Positions 2,253-14,600 of a stretch of 56,923 nucleotides of DNA are shown here, one piece after another (the first letter of the stretch is position 1; each line of letters starts with the position of its first letter). A program made the position numbers and the translations under genes. Source of the DNA: Armatimonadota bacterium (GTDB lineage Bacteria > Sysuimicrobiota > Sysuimicrobiia > Sysuimicrobiales > Humicultoraceae); the NCBI GenBank assembly GCA_031081715.1, contig JAVHMA010000022.1:1-56923 (forward strand). The letters run 5' to 3'. The notes beneath the pieces are model-generated. The model was given only the letters and a program-made list of their open reading frames with translations. It was not told where the DNA came from and did not search any database.

Positions 2253-2870
2253 GTGTCCTTCGCGATGAGGGGACGACTGCCAGGTGTGATCGTGCTGACG
2301 GGGATGCTCTCCTGGACCGCCGCTGCCCCCGGAGGGCCGACCGCGGAAGCGGCACCCGCGCGCACTGTGTGCGCCGGACACACGGTCCACGTCGTGCCGG
2401 CGGGGATGCTGGCGGGCTTCCCGATCCGCCGCGCGGAGATCCGGAGGGGCCGCAGCATCGTCGCGGCCGCCGAGGACGCATAGGTCTCGGACGTCCGTTG
2501 GGAGGATGTCACTGGTGACGGCCGGCCGGAGGTCATCGTCGAACTCTACTCCGGCGGCATGCAGCCTCCCGCTCGTGGCTGCTATCGCGGCAGACGATTC
2601 GTGGACTGCACCGGGGGATTCCCTGCGATTGTCCGGGCGACGGCCAACGACTACGCTGAACACCTTCGGCAGTTGCAGTGTGCGAGGTGTGACAGCGCGT
2701 TCGTGCGCGGTCAGGCGCTCGGCGTCTACGCCGCGTACGTGCTCCTCGGCCGGGACGCCGACGGGCTGGCGGTGGTCCGCCGCGTCGTGCCACAGCCCAC
2801 GGAGATGACCTGGCTCGCGCGCAGCGCGCCGGGGTCATGGCCTGGCAGGCCCGTCGGGCGGGACGGTTGA
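2253..2870 (+). pseudogene. Secreted FG-GAP/VCBS-like protein interrupted by an in-frame TAG
   Basis: From the GTG at 2253 (AGGAGAG at 2243-2249) one frame encodes a signal peptide (MRGRLPGVIVLTGMLSWTAAA, written here from the internal Met) and a short mature part, then hits TAG at 2481-2483. The same frame stays open to 2870 and reads WEDVTGDGRPEVIVELYSGG. This is a typical D-x-[ST]-G-D-G calcium-binding FG-GAP motif, followed by a Cys-containing domain (GCYRGRRFVDC, LQCARC). The two halves look like one secreted protein of about 205 codons split by a nonsense mutation. TAG ends many intact genes here, so genetic-code reassignment is unlikely. A sequencing error is possible. The 3' end overlaps the convergent gene at 2835. 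Confidence 0.55.
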
Positions 2871-4451
2871 CGCCGTCGGTCGCCTTGCCAGGTGCAGGGG
2901 CACAAGCTTGCCCTGCGCCGTGAGCGCCGGGGCGGCGCGCACAACCCGGATCGTTCCCACCTCGGTCCACAGGTTACGGCTCAGTCCTGTCAGGTGCTGC
3001 ACGATCGTGCGGACGACGTCCGCCTCGTCGGCGACGGCGACGCGGGGGTGGATCAGCAGGCGCAGGCGCGTGAACCCGGCGTCGTCCTCCTCCTCGACCA
3101 TCTGGTAGTCGAGCGCGCTGCCACCGAACCGCGCGGGCAGCACCTCCTCGAGCACCCGCACCATGTCGGTGGCGACCACCATCGTGCCCTCGCTGGTCAG
3201 CAGCCCGAAACTGCGGATCTCCCGCAGGTGGGCGGTGAAGCCATGGGCCTCCAGGGGACACCCGCACGCACGCGGCTCGAGGATCGCGTAGTCGCCGTTC
3301 TCGGCGTTCAGGAGGATCTTGCGCGCGGTCGGCGACAGCGAAGAAAAGTACAGCGCGGGCACGGTTGTCGCGGAGGCGCCAATCCGCCGCGGCGCCTGAA
3401 TGATCGCGTGCAGGTCACGGTAGACGTGCACATCGTCGGGGGCCACGGGCCGCGCGCAGCCGAACCCGACGTTGCCGCCCTCGGTGAACGCGTACGCGGG
3501 CACCCAGCGGGCTCCGCTCCGCGCGATACCGGCCGCCTTGGCCGGTGTGATCGGCTCCCCGCCAGCGATCATGGTCACGCCGGCGAGGCTGAGCCCGTGC
3601 TCCTGCGCGGCCAGCGCGACGCGGAGCGCCGTGCTCGCCACGCACCGCAGCACGCAGCCGCCATGGGCGGCCGCGGTTTGCGCCGCCCACCTGGCGACGA
3701 CGTCCGCCCGGTCCAGCGGAACGTACCGCGGCCACGGCAGCCTGACGCCCGACAGCCATCCCACGCCCACGATGCACATCGTCAGCGCCCGAGGTTTCAA
3801 CCGCCGCACCGTCCACGACATCGGCGACGGCGAGAACCACCGCACGTGCCGCTGCCCGATGAACGCACCGCTGCGGAAGAGGTTGTTCACCGCGCTCGTA
3901 TTGGGCAGGATGCCGCGCCACTGCCCCATCGGCAGCCCGCGCAGGCCGTGCGCCTCGAAGGCGAGCAGGGCATTGGGCGCCTCTGCCAGCAGGTTCTCGA
4001 CGCTGACGCCGACCCGAATGACCGGCCCGGTGGTGCCGCCCGTCTCGGCCCCGTAGTCCGCGCGCAGGAGCGGGTTGTCGAAATCGGTGTCGCGCACCGG
4101 GACCACCAGGTCCCCGCGGACGATTGGGGTGCGGCCCTTGGCTTCCTCGGCGGTCACGTAGACGCCGGCGGCGCGCAGGGCCTCGAGCGCGGGCTCGAGC
4201 CCCCGGGCGCGCACGGTTTCCCGGAGGTCGCCGAGCGCACAGCCCGCGCGCGCGAGCAGCGGCAGGTACGGGCTGCGTGGGTTGCCGAAAACCGCGCGCT
4301 CGACGACCTCCAGAAAGTTCGCCTCGCGCGCCTCGAGGCGCCGGCGGACGATGGCGCGGGCCTGTTCGGCCGTGACGGGATGGCGCAGCGACTCGCGCAG
4401 CTTGCGGGCGAACCGGGCGTACTGCCGGGCCTCGGACCACACAGGTCTCAC
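2835..4451 (-). CDS. Phenylacetate-CoA ligase/CapK-like adenylate-forming enzyme
   Basis: A 538-residue member of the PaaK/CapK branch of adenylate-forming enzymes, which activate a carboxylate with ATP, usually for transfer to CoA. Visible signatures are the glycine/threonine-rich AMP loop GAETGGTTGPV, the GVTMIAGGEPIT segment, YAFTEGGNVGFG (the family's Y-x-x-TE motif) and a C-terminal LTAQGKLVPL with a lysine. It has the general length of the family but departs enough from true PaaK that the substrate is unknown. The frame runs open further upstream, but the GTG at 4451 is preceded at 6 bases by GAGGGAG (complement of 4458-4464), so I start there. It is divergent from the molybdoenzyme gene at 4538 and convergent with the broken gene before it. 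Confidence 0.7.
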   Translation of the reverse strand: MRPVWSEARQYARFARKLRESLRHPVTAEQARAIVRRRLEAREANFLEVVERAVFGNPRSPYLPLLARAGCALGDLRETVRARGLEPALEALRAAGVYVTAEEAKGRTPIVRGDLVVPVRDTDFDNPLLRADYGAETGGTTGPVIRVGVSVENLLAEAPNALLAFEAHGLRGLPMGQWRGILPNTSAVNNLFRSGAFIGQRHVRWFSPSPMSWTVRRLKPRALTMCIVGVGWLSGVRLPWPRYVPLDRADVVARWAAQTAAAHGGCVLRCVASTALRVALAAQEHGLSLAGVTMIAGGEPITPAKAAGIARSGARWVPAYAFTEGGNVGFGCARPVAPDDVHVYRDLHAIIQAPRRIGASATTVPALYFSSLSPTARKILLNAENGDYAILEPRACGCPLEAHGFTAHLREIRSFGLLTSEGTMVVATDMVRVLEEVLPARFGGSALDYQMVEEEDDAGFTRLRLLIHPRVAVADEADVVRTIVQHLTGLSRNLWTEVGTIRVVRAAPALTAQGKLVPLHLARRPTASTVPPDGPARP

Positions 4452-4522
4452 TGGCTGCTCCCTCGTGGAGTTCTTCCCCACGGCATCCTGCCACGGACCG
4501 GCTGGCCGGCGCGGTCCCTGAA

Positions 4523-4531
4523 TGATACAAC
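4523..4531 (+). promoter_or_regulatory. Extended -10 promoter candidate for the molybdoenzyme gene, overlapping a divergent -10
   Basis: TGATACAAC is an extended -10 (TG-N-TACAAC) whose last base is 6 bases from the ATG at 4538, again predicting a leaderless transcript. On the complementary strand the overlapping bases 4522-4527 read TATCAT, a -10-like hexamer pointing toward the adenylating enzyme gene with a leader of about 60 bases. Two divergent polymerases could not occupy this site together, so the two genes may be mutually exclusive or coordinately controlled. Neither has a convincing -35. Confidence 0.3.
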
Positions 4532-4537
4532 CTAACC

Positions 4538-6265
4538 ATGGAATCGGCAGCAGGTCCTCCTGGCGCCCGCGCGGGCGCGCTGGCCGGCGCGCTGCTGGCC
4601 CTGGCGCTGCTGGGTGCATTCCACCTGGGGTGGATTCTCGCCGGCCTGCCGTTTGTCCCATTCGACACGTTCGACTGGCTAGTGCGCCGGCTGCCCGGTC
4701 CTGTGGTCACGTTCGCCATCGCGGCGATGGTGCGGATCATCGGCGCGCTCGACCTCGGCGGCACCGCCGAGGTCGCCAAGACCGCGGAGCAGGGGATGGC
4801 GGTCACCAGCCTGTTGCTCGCGGGCGCGGCCGGCGGGGCGCTGTTGTTTGCGGTGCTGGCCGCGCGCCCGGAGGTGGCCGCGCGCCGCGCGGGGCTGGTG
4901 CTCGGCGCCGCGACCGGCGTGCCCGCCGCGCTGATCGGCTACAGCCTTACCGGCACCGCGACGGTCAGCCCGGCCCTCGCCTCAGTATGGACCCTCGCCG
5001 CCTTCCTCGGCTGGGGCGCGGCCTGCGGCTGGACCTTCGAGCGTCTGGCGAGGGCGGAGGGCCCACGCGCGCCGGCGGAGTCGGCCACGGCGGCGGGCGG
5101 TTCGGCGGCGGGGTCGCTGCCCGCGCAGTCCGCGCTGGCGGAGGTCGTGCCCGAAGGCCACGACCTCGCGGCCCCGGCGGCGACCGCGTCGGTGGAACGC
5201 CTCGACCGCCGGCGCTTCCTCATCCGGCTCGGCGGGGCCGCGGCGGCCATTTCGGTGTCCGGCACGGTCGTAGGCGCCCTGGTCGGCCGCGACCGGCGCG
5301 GCCCGGCCGTGGTGTCCGACGGCCGCTGGTCCGCGACCCACCCGCTGCCCAACGCGGGCGCCGCGGTCCAGGCCGCGCCCGGCACGCGGCCCGAGCTCAC
5401 CCCGCTGGAGCGGCACTACCGGATCGACATCAACCTGATCCCGCGCACACTCCAGGAGCAGGACTGGCGCCTGCAGGTGCGCGGGCTGGTGGAGACACCG
5501 CTCGATCTCACGCTCGACGAGTTGCGCGCGCAGCCGCCCCTGCACCAGTTCGTCACGCTGTCCTGCATCTCGAACGAGATCGGCGGCGACCTGATCGGCA
5601 CGACGCGCTGGACCGGCCTGAGCCTGCGACGGCTCCTCCCCCGATTGCGGCTGCGCCCCGAGGCCACCCACCTGCGCGTGCGGGCGGCCGACGGTTTCTT
5701 CGAGATCGTGGCGCTCGACCTGATCCGCGACGACGAGCGGGTGATGCTGGCTTATGCCTGGGACGGCGTGCCGCTGCTGCCGCAGCACGGCTTCCCGCTG
5801 CGCATCTACATCCCGGACCGGTACGGGATGAAGCAGCCGAAGTGGATCACGGCCATCGAGGCCATCGGCGCGTGGGAGCCGGGCTACTGGGTCGTGCGCG
5901 GTTGGGACCGCGAAGCGCGCATGCGGGCGACGTCGGTCATCGACACGGTGGCGGTCCACGCCGCGACGACCGACGGAAGCGGCCGGCGCCTCGTGCCGAT
6001 CGGCGGCATCGCGCACGCCGGCGCGCGCGGGATCTCACGCGTCGAAGTCCAGGTGGACGGCGGCCCCTGGCAGCCGGCGCGGCTGCGCGACCCGCTCTCG
6101 GGCACGACGTGGGTGATCTGGCGCTACGACTGGCCGTTCACGCCGGGGACGCACACCCTGGCGGTGCGGTGCACCGACGGCGAGGGCTTGGGGCAGATCG
6201 TGGAGCCGGCGCCCCCGCAGCCGTCGGGCGCGACGGGGGTGCACCGGCGGCGCGTGCGGCTCTAG
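4538..6265 (+). CDS. Membrane-fused sulfite-oxidase-family molybdopterin oxidoreductase
   Basis: This 575-residue protein has three parts. Residues about 13-165 contain four or five hydrophobic helices. Residues 223-250 carry DRRRFLIRLGG followed by a hydrophobic stretch, which resembles a twin-arginine signal that stays as an anchor. Residues about 290-560 form a sulfite-oxidase-type molybdenum domain with the Mo-liganding cysteine at 343 (VTLSCISNEIGG) and a C-terminal Ig-like dimerisation domain (GGIAHAGARGISRVEVQVDGGPW region). The catalytic domain should fold with cofactor in the cytoplasm and be exported by Tat after Sec inserts the N-terminal helices. The substrate is unknown: family members act on sulfite or other small S/N compounds, or on methionine sulfoxide. 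No c-type cytochrome partner is adjacent. Confidence 0.85.
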   Translation: MESAAGPPGARAGALAGALLALALLGAFHLGWILAGLPFVPFDTFDWLVRRLPGPVVTFAIAAMVRIIGALDLGGTAEVAKTAEQGMAVTSLLLAGAAGGALLFAVLAARPEVAARRAGLVLGAATGVPAALIGYSLTGTATVSPALASVWTLAAFLGWGAACGWTFERLARAEGPRAPAESATAAGGSAAGSLPAQSALAEVVPEGHDLAAPAATASVERLDRRRFLIRLGGAAAAISVSGTVVGALVGRDRRGPAVVSDGRWSATHPLPNAGAAVQAAPGTRPELTPLERHYRIDINLIPRTLQEQDWRLQVRGLVETPLDLTLDELRAQPPLHQFVTLSCISNEIGGDLIGTTRWTGLSLRRLLPRLRLRPEATHLRVRAADGFFEIVALDLIRDDERVMLAYAWDGVPLLPQHGFPLRIYIPDRYGMKQPKWITAIEAIGAWEPGYWVVRGWDREARMRATSVIDTVAVHAATTDGSGRRLVPIGGIAHAGARGISRVEVQVDGGPWQPARLRDPLSGTTWVIWRYDWPFTPGTHTLAVRCTDGEGLGQIVEPAPPQPSGATGVHRRRVRL

Positions 6266-6381: not shown

Positions 6382-6410
6382 TTGACAATCTTCTGATATA
6401 CGTCTAACAT
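6382..6410 (+). promoter_or_regulatory. Near-consensus sigma70-type promoter of the 6.4-13.4 kb operon
   Basis: A consensus -35 TTGACA (6382-6387) and a -10 TAACAT (6405-6410) are separated by 17 bases in a locally AT-rich stretch that stands out from the GC-rich surroundings. Transcription would begin near 6417, about 30 bases before the first ATG (6447). It is the obvious promoter for the whole catabolic operon. The GntR-type regulator encoded in the operon is the likely repressor, but I see no clear operator palindrome. Confidence 0.65.
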
Positions 6411-6446: not shown

Positions 6447-7766
6447 ATGCGCACCGTGGCCACGAGCGCGTCCATGAACACTGAGGCCATAGATGACGCG
6501 ATCAAGGCGTATCGCGACGCCTATGTGACGCGGCTCTCAAGTCTCGTCCAAGGAGCCGCAACCGGCGAGGACCACACCGTCCGCGCGATTGCCGAGAGTC
6601 TGGAGTCCCTGGGCTGCCAGGTCGAAGTTGTCGCCCACCGTGCGTCTGATCTGCCCGCCAGCGATGAGTTCGCTCACCCCGAGCTCGTCGACTCCTGCTT
6701 GCGCCAGTCCGTCATCGGCCAGCTACCCGGCCGCAGGGCCGGCCGCAGTCTGTTGCTCTTCTGCCACCATGACACCGAACCCATTGCCGGACTCGAGGCC
6801 TGGCGGCACCCACCGTTTGCGGCGGACGCGAGCGGCGGACGGATGGTTGGCTGGGGCATCGCCGACGATCTGGCGGGCGTGGGCGTCATGTTGTGTGCTC
6901 TCGATGCCGTGCGGCGAATTGGGGCGCCGATCGGCACCATTATCGCAGCAAGCATCTCGAGCAAGCGGCATGCCTGCGGGATCGTCACGGTCCTGCGACG
7001 CGGATACACGGCGGACGGAGCACTCTATCTGCACCCGGCCGAGTCAGGCAACGGCCTCCGCGAGATCAAGGCGGTGACGCCAGGCCTGGCGCGCTTCCGT
7101 GTGACGCTTCATGGCTTTCCCGCCCCGACACAAGAACCCGAGCACACGCCAGTGCACCACGAGGCGGTGAACCCCGTGCTCGTGGCCGCCCGACTGGTAG
7201 GCGCGCTCACCGCGCTCGAAGAGCAACTGTCAGACGAGATGCGGCACCCGCTCATCGAGGCACACGGCAGGTCGGTGAGCATCCACATCGGCCACATTGC
7301 CGCGGGAGAACCCGGCGCCGCGTCCCGCGTCCCGGACACCTGCGTGGTGATCGGGTCTGTCTCATTCCCACCGGGCATTCGGCCCACGACTATGATGACG
7401 CGTGTTGAGCAGGTCGTGACGGCCATCGCAGCGGCCGACCCGCGCCCAGGATCGCGGCCGCCTCGCGTCGAGTGGCTTCTCGCGACTCCTGGCGCGGAAA
7501 TCTCGGCCGATCACCCGCTGTGCGCGACGGCCTCACGGGTCATCGAGCGGACGACCGGGGTCGCGCCATCCATCAATCCCCTCCACCCAGCGAGCGACAT
7601 CAGACATCCCATCCTGGCAGGCATTCCGTGCGTCGGCCTCGGGCCCAGGTGCGGGGACCTCGTGCAGGCTGGCGGGCACGACGAGTGGGTCGACGTGGAA
7701 GACTACCTCCAGGCCATCAACGCGACGGCTCATCTCATCGTGGATTGGTGCGGCGATGGAGTATAG
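6447..7766 (+). CDS. M20/M28-like metallopeptidase homologue lacking the catalytic glutamate pair
   Basis: A 439-residue protein of the M20 (ArgE/DapE/carboxypeptidase G2) fold. It keeps the first zinc-binding stretch (LLLFCHHDTEP, His107-x-Asp109), EAWRHPPF, the bridging-Asp segment GWGIADDLAG (Asp140), an acidic residue in LYLHPAESG (Glu199), SDIRHPILAGIPCVGLGP and the C-terminal histidine in QAGGHDEWVDVEDY. Where active members carry the Asp-Glu-Glu motif (general base and metal-bridging glutamates) it reads ISSKRHACG, with Ser171-Ser172-Lys173. The Lys of the usual DxKGG is Leu. It is therefore probably a non-hydrolytic or mechanistically altered homologue. The ATG at 6474 is an alternative start; neither has a strong ribosome-binding site. 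First gene of the operon, overlapping the next by 11 bases. Confidence 0.7.
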   Translation: MRTVATSASMNTEAIDDAIKAYRDAYVTRLSSLVQGAATGEDHTVRAIAESLESLGCQVEVVAHRASDLPASDEFAHPELVDSCLRQSVIGQLPGRRAGRSLLLFCHHDTEPIAGLEAWRHPPFAADASGGRMVGWGIADDLAGVGVMLCALDAVRRIGAPIGTIIAASISSKRHACGIVTVLRRGYTADGALYLHPAESGNGLREIKAVTPGLARFRVTLHGFPAPTQEPEHTPVHHEAVNPVLVAARLVGALTALEEQLSDEMRHPLIEAHGRSVSIHIGHIAAGEPGAASRVPDTCVVIGSVSFPPGIRPTTMMTRVEQVVTAIAAADPRPGSRPPRVEWLLATPGAEISADHPLCATASRVIERTTGVAPSINPLHPASDIRHPILAGIPCVGLGPRCGDLVQAGGHDEWVDVEDYLQAINATAHLIVDWCGDGV

Positions 7767-8793
7767 ACCGCTGGGCAGCACGGGCGTCAAGGTCTCGGCC
7801 CTCTGTCTGGGCGGCGGCAACTACGGCGACATGACGGCTGAGGAGACGGCCTGGGACATCATGCGGGCGGCCATCGAGGCCGGGGTCAACCTCATCGATA
7901 CCGCCGACAGCTACTGTGGCGGCGAAAGCGAGCGCATCATCGGGCGGTTTCTGAAAAGTACCGGCTTGCGGCACGAGGTGTTGGTTCTCAGCAAGGTCTT
8001 CTATCCGACCGGCGAGGGATTGAACGATCGCGGCCTGAGTCGCTATCACATCATGCGCGCCTGCGAGGCGTCGCTGCGGCGACTGAACACGGACCACATC
8101 GACCTCTACCTGCTGCACCGCTCCGCGGAAGATGTGCCGATCGCAGAGACCCTGGAAGCCTTGAACGACCTGGTGCGTCAGGGCAAGGTCGGCTACATCG
8201 GTTGCTCGACCTACCCGGCCTGGCGGGTGATGGAAGCGCTGGCGATGAGCGAGCGCCGGGGGTTCTCGCGGTTCGTCGTGGAGTCGCCGCCGTACAACCT
8301 GCTCGACCGCCGGGCCGAGAACGAACTCATCCCGTTGTGCCACAAGTACGGGCTGGCGGTCATCCCCTGGTCACCGCTCGCCATGGGCATGCTGGCGGGA
8401 CGCTACCCGGTCGATGCGTCGTTCCCCGAAGGCTCTCGCGCCGCGGCGAATCCACAAGGGATCTATGCGCGCCGCGTCACCCGACGTGGCGCGCAGGTCG
8501 GCGCTCGCGTTGCCGAACTCGCGCGCGCACGCGGTCTGACCGCCGGGCAGCTCGCCCTGCTCTGGATCAAGGACCAGCCGGGTGTGACGTGTCCCATCGT
8601 CGGGCCGCGGACGCGCGCTCAGCTCGCCGAGATGCTCGCGGTCGTGGACCAGCGGGCCGACGACGACCTGCGGGCAGCGTTCGATGCGCTCGTCCCGCCC
8701 GGGATGGCGGTCGCGAACTTCCACAACACCAGCGGATGGATGAAAGCCGACGTCTTCGACGATGCGCCGGAAATGATGCGGACGCCACTGTAG
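7756..8793 (+). CDS. Aldo/keto reductase family oxidoreductase
   Basis: A 345-residue (alpha/beta)8-barrel NADP-dependent oxidoreductase. The catalytic tetrad is visible: Asp48 and Tyr53 (IDTADSY), Lys80 (VLVLSKVF) and His121 (LYLLHRS). The NADP-binding segment near VTCPIVGPRTRAQL is at the expected C-terminal position. It resembles the YajO/Tas/beta-subunit-like bacterial group, which handles aldehydes, ketones or sugar hemiacetals. The gene overlaps the end of the M20-like gene by 11 bases and precedes the transporter genes, so it should act on the imported compound or a product of it. The substrate cannot be read from the sequence. Confidence 0.85.
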   Translation: MEYRPLGSTGVKVSALCLGGGNYGDMTAEETAWDIMRAAIEAGVNLIDTADSYCGGESERIIGRFLKSTGLRHEVLVLSKVFYPTGEGLNDRGLSRYHIMRACEASLRRLNTDHIDLYLLHRSAEDVPIAETLEALNDLVRQGKVGYIGCSTYPAWRVMEALAMSERRGFSRFVVESPPYNLLDRRAENELIPLCHKYGLAVIPWSPLAMGMLAGRYPVDASFPEGSRAAANPQGIYARRVTRRGAQVGARVAELARARGLTAGQLALLWIKDQPGVTCPIVGPRTRAQLAEMLAVVDQRADDDLRAAFDALVPPGMAVANFHNTSGWMKADVFDDAPEMMRTPL

Positions 8794-8805: not shown

Positions 8806-9675
8806 ATGAGAGGACGGACCGTCGTGGTGCTCATGATCGCAACCGCGGTGCTCGCGCTGATGATGGGAAGCCCCGGCAGCCCGAGTCGAGCGGCGCCCGC
8901 GGCCGTGTACCCGACCTCCCCGGTGATCGGCTCACCACCGCTGATCTCGGCCGGCAAACTCATGGCCGCCACGAACGCGACGATTCCACCGTATCAGTTC
9001 GTGGACTCCTCCGGCAAGCTGCAGGGAATGCGGATCGAACTGGGCGAGGAGCTCGCCAAACGCCTGGGGCTCAAGATGGAGTGGTTCAACGTCGGGTTCG
9101 AAACCCACATCCCAGGCCTACAGAGCAGCCGTTGGGACGTTAGTATCACGGGCATGTTCTACACGCCTGAGCGAGCTCGTATTCTGTACATGATTCCCTA
9201 CGAGTTGCAGGCGATCAGCATCTCGGTCGCGCGCGGCAACCCATTGCGCATTGCGTCCACTCGGGACCTGGCTGGTCGCCGGGTCGCCGTGGAGATCGGC
9301 GGATACGAGTTCCGCCAGATCACGCGCATCAACGAGGAGCAGGTCGCCGCAGGGCTGCGGCCGATGGAGATTCGCACGTTCAGCACGTTCGCCGACGCCT
9401 ACCAGGCGCTGCGCGCGGGCCAAGTGGACGCCGTGGTCAGTGTGGACGTCACGGCCAAGTTCTACCAGGATCGGGGCGAGTTCGACCGCGCCGTCTCTGG
9501 ACTCGCCGGCTCGCCGGCCACGCTCGCGTTCCGGTCGAAGGACGTCGCCTTCGCGGTGCTCCGCGTTCTCAACCAGATGCGGCGGGACGGCTTTTATGAC
9601 AGGCTGTTCGACAAGTACGGCGTGGCGAAGATGAGTCCCGGGCAGCTCCTCGAGCTCCGCGGACCCGACCTCTAG
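8806..9675 (+). CDS. Polar amino-acid-type ABC transporter substrate-binding protein
   Basis: A 289-residue protein with a signal peptide (hydrophobic core VVVLMIATAVLALMMG, likely cleavage near SRAAPA) followed by a family 3 solute-binding domain. Typical elements are NATIPPYQFVDSSGKLQGM, DVSITGMFYTPERAR, RDLAGRRVAVEIGG and the C-terminal DGFYDRLFDKYG. Such proteins capture an amino acid, opine or related small zwitterion outside the membrane and deliver it to the permease encoded next. GGGGGTG lies shortly before the ATG. No lipobox cysteine is visible, so it is either free or held by an uncleaved signal. Confidence 0.9.
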   Translation: MRGRTVVVLMIATAVLALMMGSPGSPSRAAPAAVYPTSPVIGSPPLISAGKLMAATNATIPPYQFVDSSGKLQGMRIELGEELAKRLGLKMEWFNVGFETHIPGLQSSRWDVSITGMFYTPERARILYMIPYELQAISISVARGNPLRIASTRDLAGRRVAVEIGGYEFRQITRINEEQVAAGLRPMEIRTFSTFADAYQALRAGQVDAVVSVDVTAKFYQDRGEFDRAVSGLAGSPATLAFRSKDVAFAVLRVLNQMRRDGFYDRLFDKYGVAKMSPGQLLELRGPDL

Positions 9676-9710: not shown

Positions 9711-10487
9711 ATGCCGGGTTGGGATTGGGGCGCCTTCCAACGCTATCTCTTCAACCGGTTTCTCCTGGAGGGCGTCTGGACCACCGTGTGGCTGTCGGTG
9801 GTCGTCATGGCGCTGGGCCTGCTGATCGGCCTGCTGGCGGCGCTCATGAATCTATCCCGGCATCCGGTCCTGCGGACGGCAGCGCGATTCTACTTGTGGC
9901 TAATCCGGGGCACGCCGCTGCTGATCCAGCTCATCATCATCTACACCGGCCTGCCCCAGATCGGCATCCGCTTCAATGTGGTCCAGTCCGCGCTCATCGG
10001 CATGACGCTCAACGAGGGCGCCTACCTGTCGGAAATCATCAGAGCAGGCATTCTGTCCGTGCCTCGGGGCCAGTACGACGCGGCGCGCGCCCTCGGGATG
10101 ACGTACCCGGTACTGATGCGGGTGGTCGTGATGCCACAGGCGGCTCGGGTCATCATTCCGCCGCTCGGCAACAACTTCAATGGATTGCTGAAGACAACGT
10201 CGCTCGTCTCGGTCATCTCCATGGAGGAGTTGCTTCGTCGGAGCCAAATGCTCATCCAGCTCGAGTTCCGCGTGCTGGAGATCTTCCTGGTGGCCGCCCT
10301 GTACTACCTGACCTTGACCACCCTGTGGGGAGTCGCGCAGCGCCGGCTCGAAGCGCACTTCGGCCGATCGGTCGCGGCGGCGCCCGAGGGCCTCGAGCCG
10401 AGACGCGCGCTGACGGCGGAGGGAGAACCGGTACGCGCGGGCGGCGCCCCTGCGGACCGAAGCCTGCTGGAGCAGGACCTCCGATAG
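9711..10487 (+). CDS. Polar amino-acid-type ABC transporter permease
   Basis: A 258-residue inner-membrane protein of the HisM/GlnP type with about five transmembrane helices. FLLEGVWTTVWLSVVVMALG opens the domain, GTPLLIQLIIIYTGLP follows, and the EAA loop that docks the ATPase reads RGQYDAARALGMTYPVLMRVVVMPQAAR. Only one permease gene is present, so the channel is probably a homodimer. The C-terminal tail after about residue 220 (Ala/Glu/Gly/Arg-rich) is not conserved. It lies between the binding protein and the ATPase, whose start follows the stop codon by 8 bases. Confidence 0.9.
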   Translation: MPGWDWGAFQRYLFNRFLLEGVWTTVWLSVVVMALGLLIGLLAALMNLSRHPVLRTAARFYLWLIRGTPLLIQLIIIYTGLPQIGIRFNVVQSALIGMTLNEGAYLSEIIRAGILSVPRGQYDAARALGMTYPVLMRVVVMPQAARVIIPPLGNNFNGLLKTTSLVSVISMEELLRRSQMLIQLEFRVLEIFLVAALYYLTLTTLWGVAQRRLEAHFGRSVAAAPEGLEPRRALTAEGEPVRAGGAPADRSLLEQDLR

Positions 10488-10495
10488 GGAGACCG

Positions 10496-11281
10496 ATGAC
10501 ACACGACCCTGCGCACATTCAGCCCATTGTGGAGCTGGTCGATGTGCACAAGTACTTCGGCGCGCACCATGTGCTGCGCGGGATCGATCTCCGCGTGCAT
10601 CAGGGCGAGGTCGTCGTCATCGTCGGGCCGAGCGGGTCGGGCAAGAGCACGATGCTTCGCTGCATCAACCATCTGGAAAGGATTCAACGCGGCCGGATCC
10701 TGGTCGCCGGGCGCCCGGTCGGGTATCGGGAATCGGGAGGACATCTGGTCGAACTGAGCGACGCCGACGTAGCCAGACATCGCCGTGACGTCGGCATGGT
10801 GTTCCAGCAGTTCAACCTGTTCCCACACATGACCGCGCTGGACAATATCGCCGCCGGCCCGATCCACGTCCTGCGCCTCCCGCCGACCGACGCGCGCGCG
10901 CAGGCCGTCCAGTTGCTCGAACTGGTCGGCCTGCCGGAGAAGGCCGCGGCGTATCCCGCCCAGCTCTCGGGCGGCCAGCAACAGCGTGTTGCCATCGCGC
11001 GCGCGCTGGCGATGAACCCGAAAGTCATGCTCTTCGACGAGCCGACCTCGGCCCTCGATCCGGAGATGATCACCGAGGTCCTGGATGTGATGCTAGCGCT
11101 CTCGAGGCAGGGCAGCACGATGCTGGTGGTCACACACGAGATGGGCTTCGCGCGCGCCGCGGCTAACCGCATTGTGTTCATGGATCAGGGGCGCCTGGTG
11201 GAAGAAGCGCCACCAGAACGGTTCTTCACGGATCCGCAAAACGAGCGGACCCGCCTGTTCTTGAGCAAAATCCTGCATTGA
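10496..11281 (+). CDS. Polar amino-acid-type ABC transporter ATP-binding protein
   Basis: A 261-residue ATPase of the GlnQ/HisP family that powers the transporter. It has Walker A GPSGSGKST, a Q-loop (GMVFQQFNLFPHMT), the ABC signature LSGGQQQR, Walker B VMLFDEPTSALD and the switch histidine in VVTHEMGFA. The ATG at 10496 follows AGGGAG by about 4 bases; the frame is open far upstream, but that part is a shadow of the permease gene. The N-terminal 10 residues before VELVDVHKYFG are slightly longer than in GlnQ. Confidence 0.92.
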   Translation: MTHDPAHIQPIVELVDVHKYFGAHHVLRGIDLRVHQGEVVVIVGPSGSGKSTMLRCINHLERIQRGRILVAGRPVGYRESGGHLVELSDADVARHRRDVGMVFQQFNLFPHMTALDNIAAGPIHVLRLPPTDARAQAVQLLELVGLPEKAAAYPAQLSGGQQQRVAIARALAMNPKVMLFDEPTSALDPEMITEVLDVMLALSRQGSTMLVVTHEMGFARAAANRIVFMDQGRLVEEAPPERFFTDPQNERTRLFLSKILH

Positions 11282-11284
11282 GCG

Positions 11285-12202
11285 GTGAGTGAGGGGCACG
11301 TGCAGACGGTCCGCGGTCCGGTGGCGCCGGAGGCGCTCGGCCCCACGCTCATGCACGAGCACGTGCTGTGCGACTTCTACCGGGTCACGGGACATCTGGA
11401 CCAGATCCTCAACGACGAAGGCCTAGCGGCGGAAGAACTGCTAGCCTACCGACGCGCCGGAGGTGCAGCACTGGTCGAGGTCACGACCCGTGACCTCGGC
11501 AGTAACCCCGCGGGACTGCGCCGGGTCTCGGAGCAGACCGGGCTGCACATCGTCGCGGCCACCGGCTGGTACCGGCAGCCGTACTACCCTCCGGAGATCG
11601 ACCGCACGCCAGTGAATCGACTGGCAGACCTCATGGTCAAGGACCTAACAGAGGGCATTGGCGAAAGCGGAGTGCGCGCGGGGATCATCGGCGAGATCGG
11701 CGCGCACCTCGACTACCTGACGGCCCAGGAAGAGCGCGTGCTGCGGGCCGCGGCCCGCGCGCAGCGCGCCACCGGCGCGCCGCTGACGACGCACGCCTCG
11801 ATGTATCCAGTAGGGCTGGCGCAGCTCGAGGTGCTCCGGGAGGAGAACGTGGATCTTGCGCGCGTGATCGTCGGGCACTGCGACACGTATCTCGACCCGG
11901 CGTACCATCGGGCCGTGTTGCGCACCGGCGCGTACGTGCAGTTCGATACCATAGGCCGCCGGCACATGAATCCAGACGGGCGCCGGGCCGACGCGCTGGT
12001 CGCGCTTGTCCGTGACGGCTGGCAACGACAGTTGCTGCTATCCAGCGACCGGTGCTATCGGTCCGACCTGCACGCGTTCGGCGGTGCCGGCTACGACGTC
12101 GTGATCACGGAGTTCCGAGCACTGGTCCGGGACCGCGGCATGGCCGACGATGCGTGGGAAGCGATGCTGGTCGACAATCCGAGGCGAATCCTCGCATGGT
12201 GA
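11285..12202 (+). CDS. Phosphotriesterase-family metal-dependent hydrolase (PHP/lactonase-like)
   Basis: A 305-residue amidohydrolase-superfamily barrel. Binuclear metal ligands are in place: His24 and His26 (TLMHEHV), Glu137 as the bridging residue (GIIGEIGAH), His170 (LTTHAS), His198 (VGHCD) and Asp255 (SSDRCY). The bridging Glu, rather than a carboxylated Lys, places it with the phosphotriesterase-homology proteins, many of which are lactonases, rather than with true paraoxonases. A GTG at 11285 starts it 3 bases after the ATPase stop. In this operon it probably opens a lactone or hydrolyses an ester or carbamoyl group of the imported compound. Confidence 0.82.
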   Translation: MSEGHVQTVRGPVAPEALGPTLMHEHVLCDFYRVTGHLDQILNDEGLAAEELLAYRRAGGAALVEVTTRDLGSNPAGLRRVSEQTGLHIVAATGWYRQPYYPPEIDRTPVNRLADLMVKDLTEGIGESGVRAGIIGEIGAHLDYLTAQEERVLRAAARAQRATGAPLTTHASMYPVGLAQLEVLREENVDLARVIVGHCDTYLDPAYHRAVLRTGAYVQFDTIGRRHMNPDGRRADALVALVRDGWQRQLLLSSDRCYRSDLHAFGGAGYDVVITEFRALVRDRGMADDAWEAMLVDNPRRILAW

Positions 12203-12879
12203 AACCGCCAAGCGGCATCGTGCTCAAGACAAGACCACGGCGCCCGGCGCGGACGCGGCGCCTGTTTAGCGACGAGGCCTACGAGCGGCTGAAGGAGATG
12301 ATCATCACCGCAGAGCTTCCCCCCGGGACGCTCTTGACTGAGGTCGACCTCGCCGAGCGGCTCGGACTGGGCCGCATGCCGGTCCGGGAAGCCCTCCAAC
12401 GCTTGGCACAGGAGGATCTCGTCAACATCGTGCCGCGCAAGGGGTCGTTCGTCTCACCCATTCGGGTGGAAGACCTCCAGAAGATCTTCGAGCTGCGCCT
12501 GTCGGTGGAAGGCCTCTCGGCCCGCTTGGCCGCCGAGCGCATCCGCGAGGACGAACTGCGATCCCTGGAAGCCCTCATCGAGAAAGCCGGCGATGTCGAT
12601 GAAGGCTCGCGGCGACACGTGCACATCGACCGGACCTTCCACCTCACGATCGCCGCGGCCGCGCGCAACGAGTACTTGGCGAGAGTCGTGGAACGGACCC
12701 TCAACCTGGCGCTGCGTCTGCTCTACCTGTCGGGGAGCCGGATGTCCAAGGTCGCCGAGATTGCCCATGAGTATCGCGCCGTACTGGATGCCCTCAAGCG
12801 TGGCGACGGCGAGGCCGCGTCCGCGGCAATGCAGGCGCACATCGAAGAGTTTCGCAAGAAGGTCCGGACCGCGATCTGA
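12196..12879 (+). CDS. GntR-family transcriptional regulator with FCD ligand domain
   Basis: A 227-residue FadR-subfamily regulator. Residues about 20-85 form the winged helix (YERLKEMIITAELPPGTLLTE..., recognition helix near RMPVREALQRLAQEDLV). The rest is an all-helical FCD domain, whose metal or carboxylate ligands typically include an Asp and three His; HVHIDRTFH is one such segment. The ATG at 12196 overlaps the stop codon of the hydrolase gene. Because it lies inside the operon it is most likely the local repressor, responding to the transported substrate or a breakdown product. Organic acids are typical FCD ligands. Confidence 0.88.
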   Translation: MVKPPSGIVLKTRPRRPARTRRLFSDEAYERLKEMIITAELPPGTLLTEVDLAERLGLGRMPVREALQRLAQEDLVNIVPRKGSFVSPIRVEDLQKIFELRLSVEGLSARLAAERIREDELRSLEALIEKAGDVDEGSRRHVHIDRTFHLTIAAAARNEYLARVVERTLNLALRLLYLSGSRMSKVAEIAHEYRAVLDALKRGDGEAASAAMQAHIEEFRKKVRTAI

Positions 12880-12898: not shown

Positions 12899-13375
12899 GT
12901 GTCGGTGATCAGGATCGAGTTCGAAAGAGGCGGAACGTTCCACGCTCGCCTGCTGGAGGATGCAGCGCCGAAGACTTGCCGCCGTATCAAAGCCCGCCTC
13001 CCCTTTGCCTATCGCTTTCATCACAGCATCGTGTCGGGGCAGGCGTTGGTGACACTGCCGCCCGACCTCACCGTGCCGCGGGAGAACCAACGCGTTGCTG
13101 GAATCCCGCCGGGCACGTTGTCGTTCCTGGTGCGGGATGAACCCGTACTCGTGCCCGACGAGATCTATATCGCCTACGGCATCTTCATCTCGCGCGGTCT
13201 CACGGTGGACACGAAGCAGCCGGTCAACGTCTTCGCGCAAATCGACACCGATCTCGAAGACCTGAAGGTAGTGGGGAACCGCGTACTCATGCAGGGTGCC
13301 GAGACGGTCCGGTTCAGTCTAGCAGGCCCGATGAAACATGTGCGCCGGCCAGGCAGTCGCGCCAGGAACTCGTAG
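12899..13375 (+). CDS. DUF3830-family cyclophilin-like protein
   Basis: A 158-residue protein that I recognise as a DUF3830 member. It is a cyclophilin-like beta-barrel with a characteristic start (IRIEFERGGTFHARLLEDAAPKTC) and GEIYIAYG-like core (DEIYIAYGIFIS). DUF3830 proteins have no established biochemical role; they are often found in amino-acid or amide catabolic operons. A GTG at 12899 preceded by GAGAGGA was chosen; the frame is open upstream but only as a shadow of the regulator gene. It is the last gene of the operon and ends 36 bases before the convergent creatininase-family gene. Confidence 0.65.
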   Translation: MSVIRIEFERGGTFHARLLEDAAPKTCRRIKARLPFAYRFHHSIVSGQALVTLPPDLTVPRENQRVAGIPPGTLSFLVRDEPVLVPDEIYIAYGIFISRGLTVDTKQPVNVFAQIDTDLEDLKVVGNRVLMQGAETVRFSLAGPMKHVRRPGSRARNS

Positions 13376-13410: not shown

Positions 13411-14214
13411 TCAGACCCGCGCATAGGAGCCTGGAAGGTCCCGCCCACCTGTCCCTCGCACCAGCTCCCGCATCAGCCCGATCAGCATCTCCGTCAGGCG
13501 CCCGTACGTCTCGCGGCCCTCCGCGGCCGTCGCGTCGGCGGGGCGGCCGTTGTAGGCCTCGCGCAGTCCCATCGCCTTGAAGTCCTTGAGCCCGCGCCCG
13601 ATGACCTCGGCGAGGTTGACCGGCACGTAGGGGAGGGCGCGCATGACCGCGAGGTCGACCAGGTCCGGACGATCCGCCAGGACCAGCGACGTCTCGTACT
13701 GGCCGGCGTGGCACTCGGCCCGCTGGAACTCCTCGGTGAGCGCCGCCGCCCGCTCGCGACGGGTCAGGTCGAGGAAGCCGACGGTGACCCCGGTCTCCGC
13801 CTGAATGGCATCCAGGCTCCGGTGGATCGTGCGGACGTGCTCCGGCTCGAAGTGATTGTTCACGATCATGATCGCGCGCAGGCCCTGCCGGATGAGCGAG
13901 CCGCAGATCTCCACGAGCAGCGCGCGCAGCGTGCCCTCCGAGATGTGGATCGTGCCCGGGAACGCGCTGGCGTAGGTCGTCACGCCGTAGCCGAGCGGCG
14001 GGAGCATCAGCGCCCCCATCTCCGGGTCATCGCGCAGCCGCTCGATCACCCGACGGCACAGCCCGAGCGAGATCAGCAGGTCGGTGGACAGCGGCGCGTG
14101 CGGCCCATGGGGTTCGACCGTGCCCAGCGGCAGCAGCAGGACGGTCGGCCGTTCGGCCCGGCGCATGGCGTCGACTTGTGCCCACGACAGGCTCGCGAAC
14201 TCCATGGGCCGCAT
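13411..14214 (-). CDS. Creatininase-family amidohydrolase
   Basis: A 267-residue protein with the metal-binding pattern LGTVEPHGPHAPLSTD (Glu34, His36, Asp45), a second region NNHFEPEHV replacing the commoner N-G-H-G-G-N, and HAGQYETSLVLA containing a further His/Glu pair. Family members hydrolyse cyclic amides or small amide bonds (creatinine, a mycofactocin peptide, FAPy pyrimidine). The ATG at 14214 has GAGGG at a suitable distance; the frame runs open upstream but that part is not family sequence. It is 20 bases downstream of the RidA gene on the same strand and converges on the DUF3830 operon. Confidence 0.8.
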   Translation of the reverse strand: MRPMEFASLSWAQVDAMRRAERPTVLLLPLGTVEPHGPHAPLSTDLLISLGLCRRVIERLRDDPEMGALMLPPLGYGVTTYASAFPGTIHISEGTLRALLVEICGSLIRQGLRAIMIVNNHFEPEHVRTIHRSLDAIQAETGVTVGFLDLTRRERAAALTEEFQRAECHAGQYETSLVLADRPDLVDLAVMRALPYVPVNLAEVIGRGLKDFKAMGLREAYNGRPADATAAEGRETYGRLTEMLIGLMRELVRGTGGRDLPGSYARV

Positions 14215-14234
14215 GGCTGCCCTCAGGTCCGCCC

Positions 14235-14600
14235 TCACCCCTTCAGGGCGGCGGTGACCACGATCTCGACGAGGAGCGTCGGCGCGCCCAGCCGGGCCTC
14301 CACCGTCGCGCGGGTCGGCAGGTTGTTCTTGTCGACCCACGCCTCCCAGACGGCGTTCATTTCGTCGAAGTAACGGATGTCCGACAGGTACACGGTCGCC
14401 GCGAGCAGCTTCGACTTGTCTGTGCCGGCCGCGGCGAGCAAGGCGTCGATCTTCTCCAGCACGCGTCGCGTCTGCGCCCGGACGTCCGCCGGCGGCTCGG
14501 ACGGCGGGTCGGCCGCGGTTTGCCCGGCCACGTAGACGGTGTCGCCGTGGACGACGACCGCGGAGAATCTCGGCCCCGGGTTGATGCGTGTGATCGCCAT
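14235..14600 (-). CDS. RidA/YjgF-family enamine/imine deaminase
   Basis: A 121-residue RidA-fold protein (INPGPRFSAVVVHGDTVYVAGQTA at the start, here broken by the residue limit after AGQT; then RATVEARLGAPTLLVEIVVTA). The arginine in RATVEA and the glutamate in LLVEIVV correspond to the active-site Arg and Glu of the family. RidA proteins hydrolyse reactive enamines/imines made by PLP enzymes; several relatives work in amide or pyrimidine breakdown. The ATG at 14600 is chosen because GGGAGGG precedes it at 3 bases and the fold starts there. It forms a unit with the creatininase-family gene. Confidence 0.85.
   Translation of the reverse strand: MAITRINPGPRFSAVVVHGDTVYVAGQTAADPPSEPPADVRAQTRRVLEKIDALLAAAGTDKSKLLAATVYLSDIRYFDEMNAVWEAWVDKNNLPTRATVEARLGAPTLLVEIVVTAALKG

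Follow-up and report, generated by a model that had tools for sequence, protein, structure and literature searches.

Few kinds of metallohydrolase are as common in bacteria as the M20 proteins, which routinely receive the name 'ArgE/DapE family deacylase'. What, then, is a gene product that matches this family and carries Ser-Ser-Lys where its catalytic Asp-Glu-Glu is expected? Such a gene (Table 1) is found in the window, that is, the whole stretch of 56,923 nucleotides of DNA analyzed here, and a sequence-only reading had proposed that it may encode a binding protein, a regulator, or an enzyme with a different mechanism. The answer depends on how much of the metal site is left, on whether the replacement is shared by relatives, and on the genes that accompany it.

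Fold assignment and active-site residues

The window protein had been assigned to the M20 family, and this assignment is well borne out: PF01546 (Peptidase_M20) scores 60.1 bits against a cut-off of 24.6, PF07687 (M20_dimer) scores 24 bits against a cut-off of 21, both cut-offs being curated, and the two-domain M20 fold is matched as well. Among the 22 members of profile A1, which comprises the window protein and the 21 loci of a GTDB genome scan, the two domains are detected at E 0.001 in 22/22 and 18/22 cases, respectively. An AlphaFold model computed from a 22-row alignment (mean pLDDT 85.2, pTM 0.86; mean confidence 71 at residues 171-180 and <50 at residues 407-409) finds 3PFO as its best Foldseek match (E 3.2e-31), and VIA likewise ranks 3PFO first (Z-score 38.1; r.m.s.d. 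4.2 Å, 412 residues aligned), followed by 5-nitroanthranilate aminohydrolase (Z-score 35.3) and then DapE. The best-scoring NCBIfam model is NF005306 (ArgE/DapE family deacylase), which matches 22/22 A1 members with a best E-value of 1.8e-58; the window protein scores 154.7 bits and thus remains below the cut-off of 376.

Table 1. The M20-fold gene, its active-site motifs and its neighbors in the window (fractions refer to 43 aligned clade rows)
Feature	Position	Strand	Remarks
Sigma-70-like promoter match, TTGACA-17-TAACAT	6382..6410	+	upstream of M20-fold gene; consensus match only
M20-fold gene	6447..7766	+	439 aa, open frame
Possible alternative start (ATG) of M20-fold gene	6474	+	several relatives begin near there
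His107-His108-Asp109, HxD motif	6765..6773	+	H and D 43/43; relatives read H-P-D; His107 is the first-metal His
Asp140-Asp141-Leu142	6864..6872	+	bridging Asp140 43/43; Asp141 43/43
Ser171-Ser172-Lys173-Arg174	6957..6968	+	replaces the catalytic and metal-binding Glu pair
His196-Pro-Ala-Glu199-Ser200	7032..7046	+	His at EPT-Glu column; HPAES 43/43
Lid stretch with clade-specific insertion	7128..7160	+	Thr228, Glu230, His238 43/43
Gly409-Gly410-His411-Asp412-Glu413	7671..7685	+	canonical second-metal His column is Gly409
Aldo/keto reductase (AKR)	7756..8793	+	overlaps M20-fold gene by 11 bases
Family-3 solute-binding protein (SBP), polar amino acid type	8806..9675	+	
ABC permease	9711..10487	+	
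ABC ATPase	10496..11281	+	start approximate
Phosphotriesterase-family protein (PTE)	11285..12202	+	
GntR-FCD regulator	12052..12879	+	start approximate
DUF3830 protein	12899..13375	+	start approximate; hidden in longer mechanical ORF 12593-13375

Residue conservation was counted in 43 clade rows (the window protein, 21 proteins from the GTDB scan and 21 from Hyphomicrobiales) that were aligned with canonical M20 rows. L052, which is the same as L038 (Devosia), was dropped before these counts, and canonical fragments of <370 residues were dropped before the canonical counts and the tree, so that the canonical comparison comprises 14 full-length rows of >370 residues.

Translation of the window yields Ser171-Ser172-Lys173 for the codons at 6957-6965, followed by Arg174, and it is this stretch that aligns at the (D/E)EE motif, as had been recognized from the sequence. 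The lysine is present in 43/43 clade rows, and Ser172 and Arg174 in 41/43 each; the residue following the lysine in the 42 relatives is Arg in 40, Lys in one and Ser in one. A check suggested along with the sequence-only reading was whether orthologues keep Ser-Ser-Lys; most relatives read P-S-K-R-H-A-R-G at this place. The lysine of the DxKGG motif is lost as claimed, its column being occupied by Leu142 (Leu in 42/43 and Phe in 1/43 clade rows, versus Lys in 14/14 canonical rows).

At the motif, the loop of the clade lacks one residue relative to the canonical one, and the alignments place the resulting gap differently. Comparison by hhalign with two of three canonical sets puts the gap before the motif and equates DEE with SSK (S172 and K173 opposite the two Glu), whereas hhalign with the third set, MAFFT and phmmer put it after the motif and equate DEE with SKR (K173 and R174 opposite the two Glu). 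In these alignments the register is ambiguous by one residue, and on it depends whether Lys173 or Arg174 is the residue facing the metal; the loss of both carboxylates holds either way. A misalignment hiding a conserved Glu pair nearby, which had been named as the observation that would speak against the loss, is rejected: no equivalent pair is present in residues 150-205 of the 43 rows, and the sole EE in this range is located, out of register, in the upstream helix of three of them (L059, L068, L069).

The zinc site had been described as intact apart from the Glu pair, and this description has to be revised. Of the residues then listed, His107, Asp109 and Asp140 are indeed found in 43/43 rows each, but Glu199 and the final His did not withstand alignment. 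The glutamate of the EPT motif aligns with His196 (His in 43/43 clade rows; E 11, D 2, S 1 of the 14 canonical rows), and Glu199 lies three residues further on; being invariant in the clade, the latter may nevertheless be of importance. Likewise, the column of the canonical second-metal His (His in 11/14 canonical rows) is that of Gly409 (G 35, D 6, S 1, R 1 of 43, never His), while His411, two residues past it and previously taken as the zinc ligand, is His in only 29/43 rows. Among the five di-zinc ligands, H107 and D140 are therefore kept, the metal-binding Glu of the pair is Lys or Arg by register, the EPT Glu is H196 and the final His is G409; the general-base Glu column is S172 or K173 by register, with Glu in neither. 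With the exchanges at the Glu pair and at Gly409, the second zinc site is left devoid of both its private ligands and of the general base. The first site, in turn, survives by alignment as His107, Asp140 and His196, with a Glu-to-His swap.

Conservation extends to residues with no fixed counterpart in the canonical family. Positions invariant in 43/43 rows include H107, D109, D140, D141, K173, H196, E199, S200, K208, E230, H238, H380, R386 and E413, of which H107, D109, D140, R386 and E413 are retained from the canonical family, and those fixed in the clade and not so in the canonical rows comprise Asp141, Tyr194, Glu199, Ser200, Lys208, Thr228, Glu230, His238, His380 and Trp414. The window protein is a homologue of M20 proteins by fold and sequence, yet does not have the active site of a di-zinc M20 hydrolase, and it should be named an M20-fold protein of unknown reaction instead of a peptidase or a deacylase.

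Distribution and selection

The GTDB genome scan yielded 21 loci with 40-49% identity, including loci from Rhodospirillales, Roseomonas, Reyranella, Ramlibacter, Devosia and Gemmatimonadota. Members of profile A1 occur in 22 of 397 genomes in Devosia's order (Hyphomicrobiales), in 2 of 298 Gemmatimonadota genomes, in 1 of 399 genomes in Ramlibacter's order (Burkholderiales), there in two copies, and in 1 of 43 genomes in the window's phylum, which is that of the window itself. The subfamily is sparse and scattered across phyla. In the window's phylum, the proteins that rank next (≤211 bits) are canonical, with an ordinary D-E-E, and no intermediate forms were detected in Gemmatimonadota and Burkholderiales between the clade (at least 489 bits) and the 1e-60 limit. 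A plasmid search with the Devosia relative gave 16 matches, the best at <30% identity, which are probably ordinary M20 relatives, and a phage search gave no match at 1e-20.

The window genome (G000; 2.98 Mb) contains 18 Peptidase_M20 matches over the curated cut-off and 19 at E 0.001, which seems many. Outside the window it also encodes an atypical M20 paralogue, L011 (G000:C46:44232-45245). In its sequence, AANMK stands at the bridging-Asp motif and GELQ at the Glu pair; the final His is missing and EPT is kept, and by these motifs it is similar to 5-nitroanthranilate aminohydrolase.

In a tree of 57 rows, all 43 clade rows, that is, the window protein and its 42 relatives from Pseudomonadota and Gemmatimonadota, fall on one side of a 100/100 branch. 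Within the clade the window protein branches off deepest and has a long branch (0.99); the tree program flags long-branch joins both there and among the canonical rows. The window protein keeps 57 of the 68 columns that are invariant in 41 other rows and differs at 11, including Arg177, which is replaced by Cys; hence we regard it as a divergent member that retains K173, R174 and H196. Close relatives show dN/dS values of 0.03-0.18 in 11 of 12 pairs, the twelfth having a saturated dS that made the ratio not computable. The earlier view that the gene is unlikely to be decaying, which had been based on its place in an operon, is thereby placed on firmer ground, and for the clade the support is strong: the proteins form a single group, the replacement motif is invariant, selection is purifying and the neighbors are conserved.

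The operon and its counterparts in other genomes

The M20-fold gene was correctly described as the first of an operon, since it opens a same-strand run and its 3' end overlaps the next ATG (7756). For the promoter-like match upstream, one such match was found versus a mean of 0.1 in shuffled sequences. A gene for a creatininase-family protein (13411-14340) adjoins the operon on the opposite strand, and a 608-residue open frame on the minus strand (2835-4661), with ends that overlap other frames, has no Pfam match at 0.001.

We surveyed the neighbors in 42 loci (the window, the 21 loci of the GTDB scan and 20 further stretches, several of them cut by contig ends), accepting matches of at least 33% identity. 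Of the 22 Hyphomicrobiales hits, 19 were surveyed in addition to Devosia, which is represented as L038, and G152 and G367 were left out. Most frequent are an FAD oxidoreductase (35 loci), a DHDPS-family protein (34), the SBP and the permease (33 each), followed by the ATPase (23), GntR (19), PTE (18), TctC (15), AspDH (14) and AKR (2); DUF3830 was found in five loci with one query and in two more with that of the window. In a locus from Gemmatimonadota (L026), the M20-like gene is accompanied by a TRAP transporter, an AKR and DUF3830. Its AKR is 57% identical to that of the window, and its DUF3830 protein is ∼75% identical, far above the 42% of the M20-like proteins. Across loci, the importer is of varying type (ABC, TctC, TRAP), whereas the M20-like gene is retained, as would fit a part in the catabolism of some small molecule taken up by the cell.

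A search of the window's genome at 1e-20 gave no match to the FAD oxidoreductase that is common among the relatives, so that the window's pathway may differ from theirs; DHDPS-family proteins are present elsewhere in that genome. Within loci L019-L039 and L074-L093, the FAD oxidoreductase is a fused protein of 850-1080 residues, one scanned example of which combines DAO, Fer2_4, Pyr_redox_2 and Fer2_BFD, and the member searched had no PDB match at 1e-30. Among the FAD oxidoreductase, DHDPS, PTE, AKR and SBP proteins, no NCBIfam equivalog scored above its cut-off; a subfamily cut-off was exceeded by the AspDH representative only (180.3 versus 177). The SBP matches general amino-acid binders, by which its ligand is not fixed. 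The combination of an FAD oxidoreductase with a DHDPS-family protein resembles hydroxyproline catabolism; neither a hydroxyproline epimerase nor an aldehyde dehydrogenase was found among the scanned neighbor clusters, which cover part of the neighbors, and the one candidate, in locus L080, proved to be a GFO/IDH/MocA protein. The conserved operon, with its importer, FAD oxidoreductase, DHDPS-family and phosphotriesterase-family proteins, points to a catabolic pathway. Since relatives in other phyla keep the replacement residues and lie in operons for import and breakdown, the window gene probably encodes a functional protein whose site has been redesigned, and is not a dying gene.

Proposed function and comparison with known M20 proteins

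Retention of the first-site positions, together with the fixation of many new polar residues, leads us to favor an enzyme with a different mechanism among the roles initially considered. The same pattern would be expected of a conserved binding protein, and for this reason it is with moderate confidence, and from sequence, that we take the window protein to be a member of an M20 subfamily with a rebuilt active site, which would still be a catabolic enzyme and use one metal along with a Lys-Arg pair. The metal would be held by His107, Asp140 and His196, while the side chains of Lys173 and Arg174 would take the place of the second metal with its ligands and serve to activate the substrate or to orient it; the base might be any one of the conserved residues Glu111, Glu199 and Glu230, or a His. 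The substrate could be a small amino-acid-like compound supplied by the neighboring importer, and breakage of a C-N bond would most likely still be the reaction. Several observations count against this proposal: 13 of the 43 rows have Gln in the column of the dimer-domain His (His233; His in 30), a residue that M20 enzymes use in trans; the window protein, deepest in the clade and on a long branch, departs from 11 of the 68 otherwise invariant columns; its genome gave no match to the FAD oxidoreductase of the relatives; and confidence in the model is moderate at the motif and low at residues 407-409. The subfamily of the M20 fold is uncharacterized so far, and a literature search gave no paper on it by title, by which absence from print is not shown. 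Should the protein be an enzyme, it would illustrate how two-metal sites can be converted into one-metal sites with a fixed Lys-Arg pair. The name 'ArgE/DapE family deacylase' would in any case be a misnomer for proteins without the catalytic machinery that it implies.

As a sub-case of this proposal, the protein may hydrolyze amides in the ordinary way, using one metal in the first site and a different residue as base, which we regard as possible, if rather doubtful. Precedent is provided by 5-nitroanthranilate aminohydrolase, an M20-fold hydrolase and the second VIA match, which has GEID, and hence no second Glu, and holds one metal. A mono-zinc structure of ArgE also exists (PMC11270798). 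5-Nitroanthranilate aminohydrolase keeps one motif Glu, however, and the clade none; the lysine present in the motif of all rows, with Arg after it in 41, likewise counts against this sub-case.

Somewhat more tentatively, one may think of the same one-metal site, with its two histidines and one carboxylate, and Lys-Arg pair serving non-hydrolytic catalysis, for example that of a lyase, an isomerase or an enzyme acting via a Schiff base. The substrate might then be, e.g., a cyclic or N-substituted amino acid, in operons with FAD oxidoreductase and DHDPS-family protein. Apart from the reversal of hydrolysis, M20-fold proteins are not known to act naturally in any other than a hydrolytic way.

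That the protein is a catalytically dead M20 homologue which binds the imported compound or an intermediate, be it as a sensor, a chaperone or a partner subunit of enzymes encoded in the operon, is in our view unlikely. Such a role would agree with the absence of both the general base and the second site, and with a location among importer genes, with a GntR-FCD regulator nearby in 19/42 loci with the query used. It is less easily reconciled with the many non-canonical polar residues fixed at the active-site motifs, or with first-site ligand positions that are kept or exchanged for another type of ligand and show no drift; as for a regulator, the window already has one of the GntR type. Finally, decay of the gene, or a motif created by sequencing or alignment error, is suggested by the long branch and 11 unusual residues of the window protein and is rejected as very improbable, given the open frame of 439 codons, the single 100/100 clade, the lysine at the same place in 42/42 relatives, their low dN/dS and the lack of any EE pair in register.

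The enzyme with a rebuilt one-metal site that we favor can be compared with three known M20 proteins. Closest by sequence (1.9e-20 with a single sequence, 1e-37 with a profile) is 3PFO, a putative acetylornithine deacetylase of the ArgE/DapE branch, which shares the two-domain architecture over its full length; it has E-E-E, E-P-T and H-A-F-D-E where the clade has S-K-R, H-P-A-E-S and G-x-x-D-E. 5-Nitroanthranilate aminohydrolase (5K8M, 5K8N, 5K8O, 5K8P) is more distant (2.3e-13) and, like the clade, has neither the second Glu nor an aligned final His. It differs in keeping the one Glu of GEID, in place of which the clade has its invariant K173, and in having N-x-K where the clade has D-D-L.

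The third comparison is with E. coli ArgE and DapE. For ArgE, PMC11270798 gives H80, D112 and E169 as ligands of the first zinc and D112, E145 and H355 as those of the second, lists E144 among the substrate-binding residues, and describes a mono-zinc structure with only the first site filled; in M20A enzymes, the catalytic glutamate serves as general base according to a review (PMC11511702). For E144, E145 and H355 of ArgE as described there, the clade has no equivalent carboxylate or His. H80, D112 and E169 correspond to H107, D140 and H196 in the clade, so that the positions kept are exactly those of the first site.
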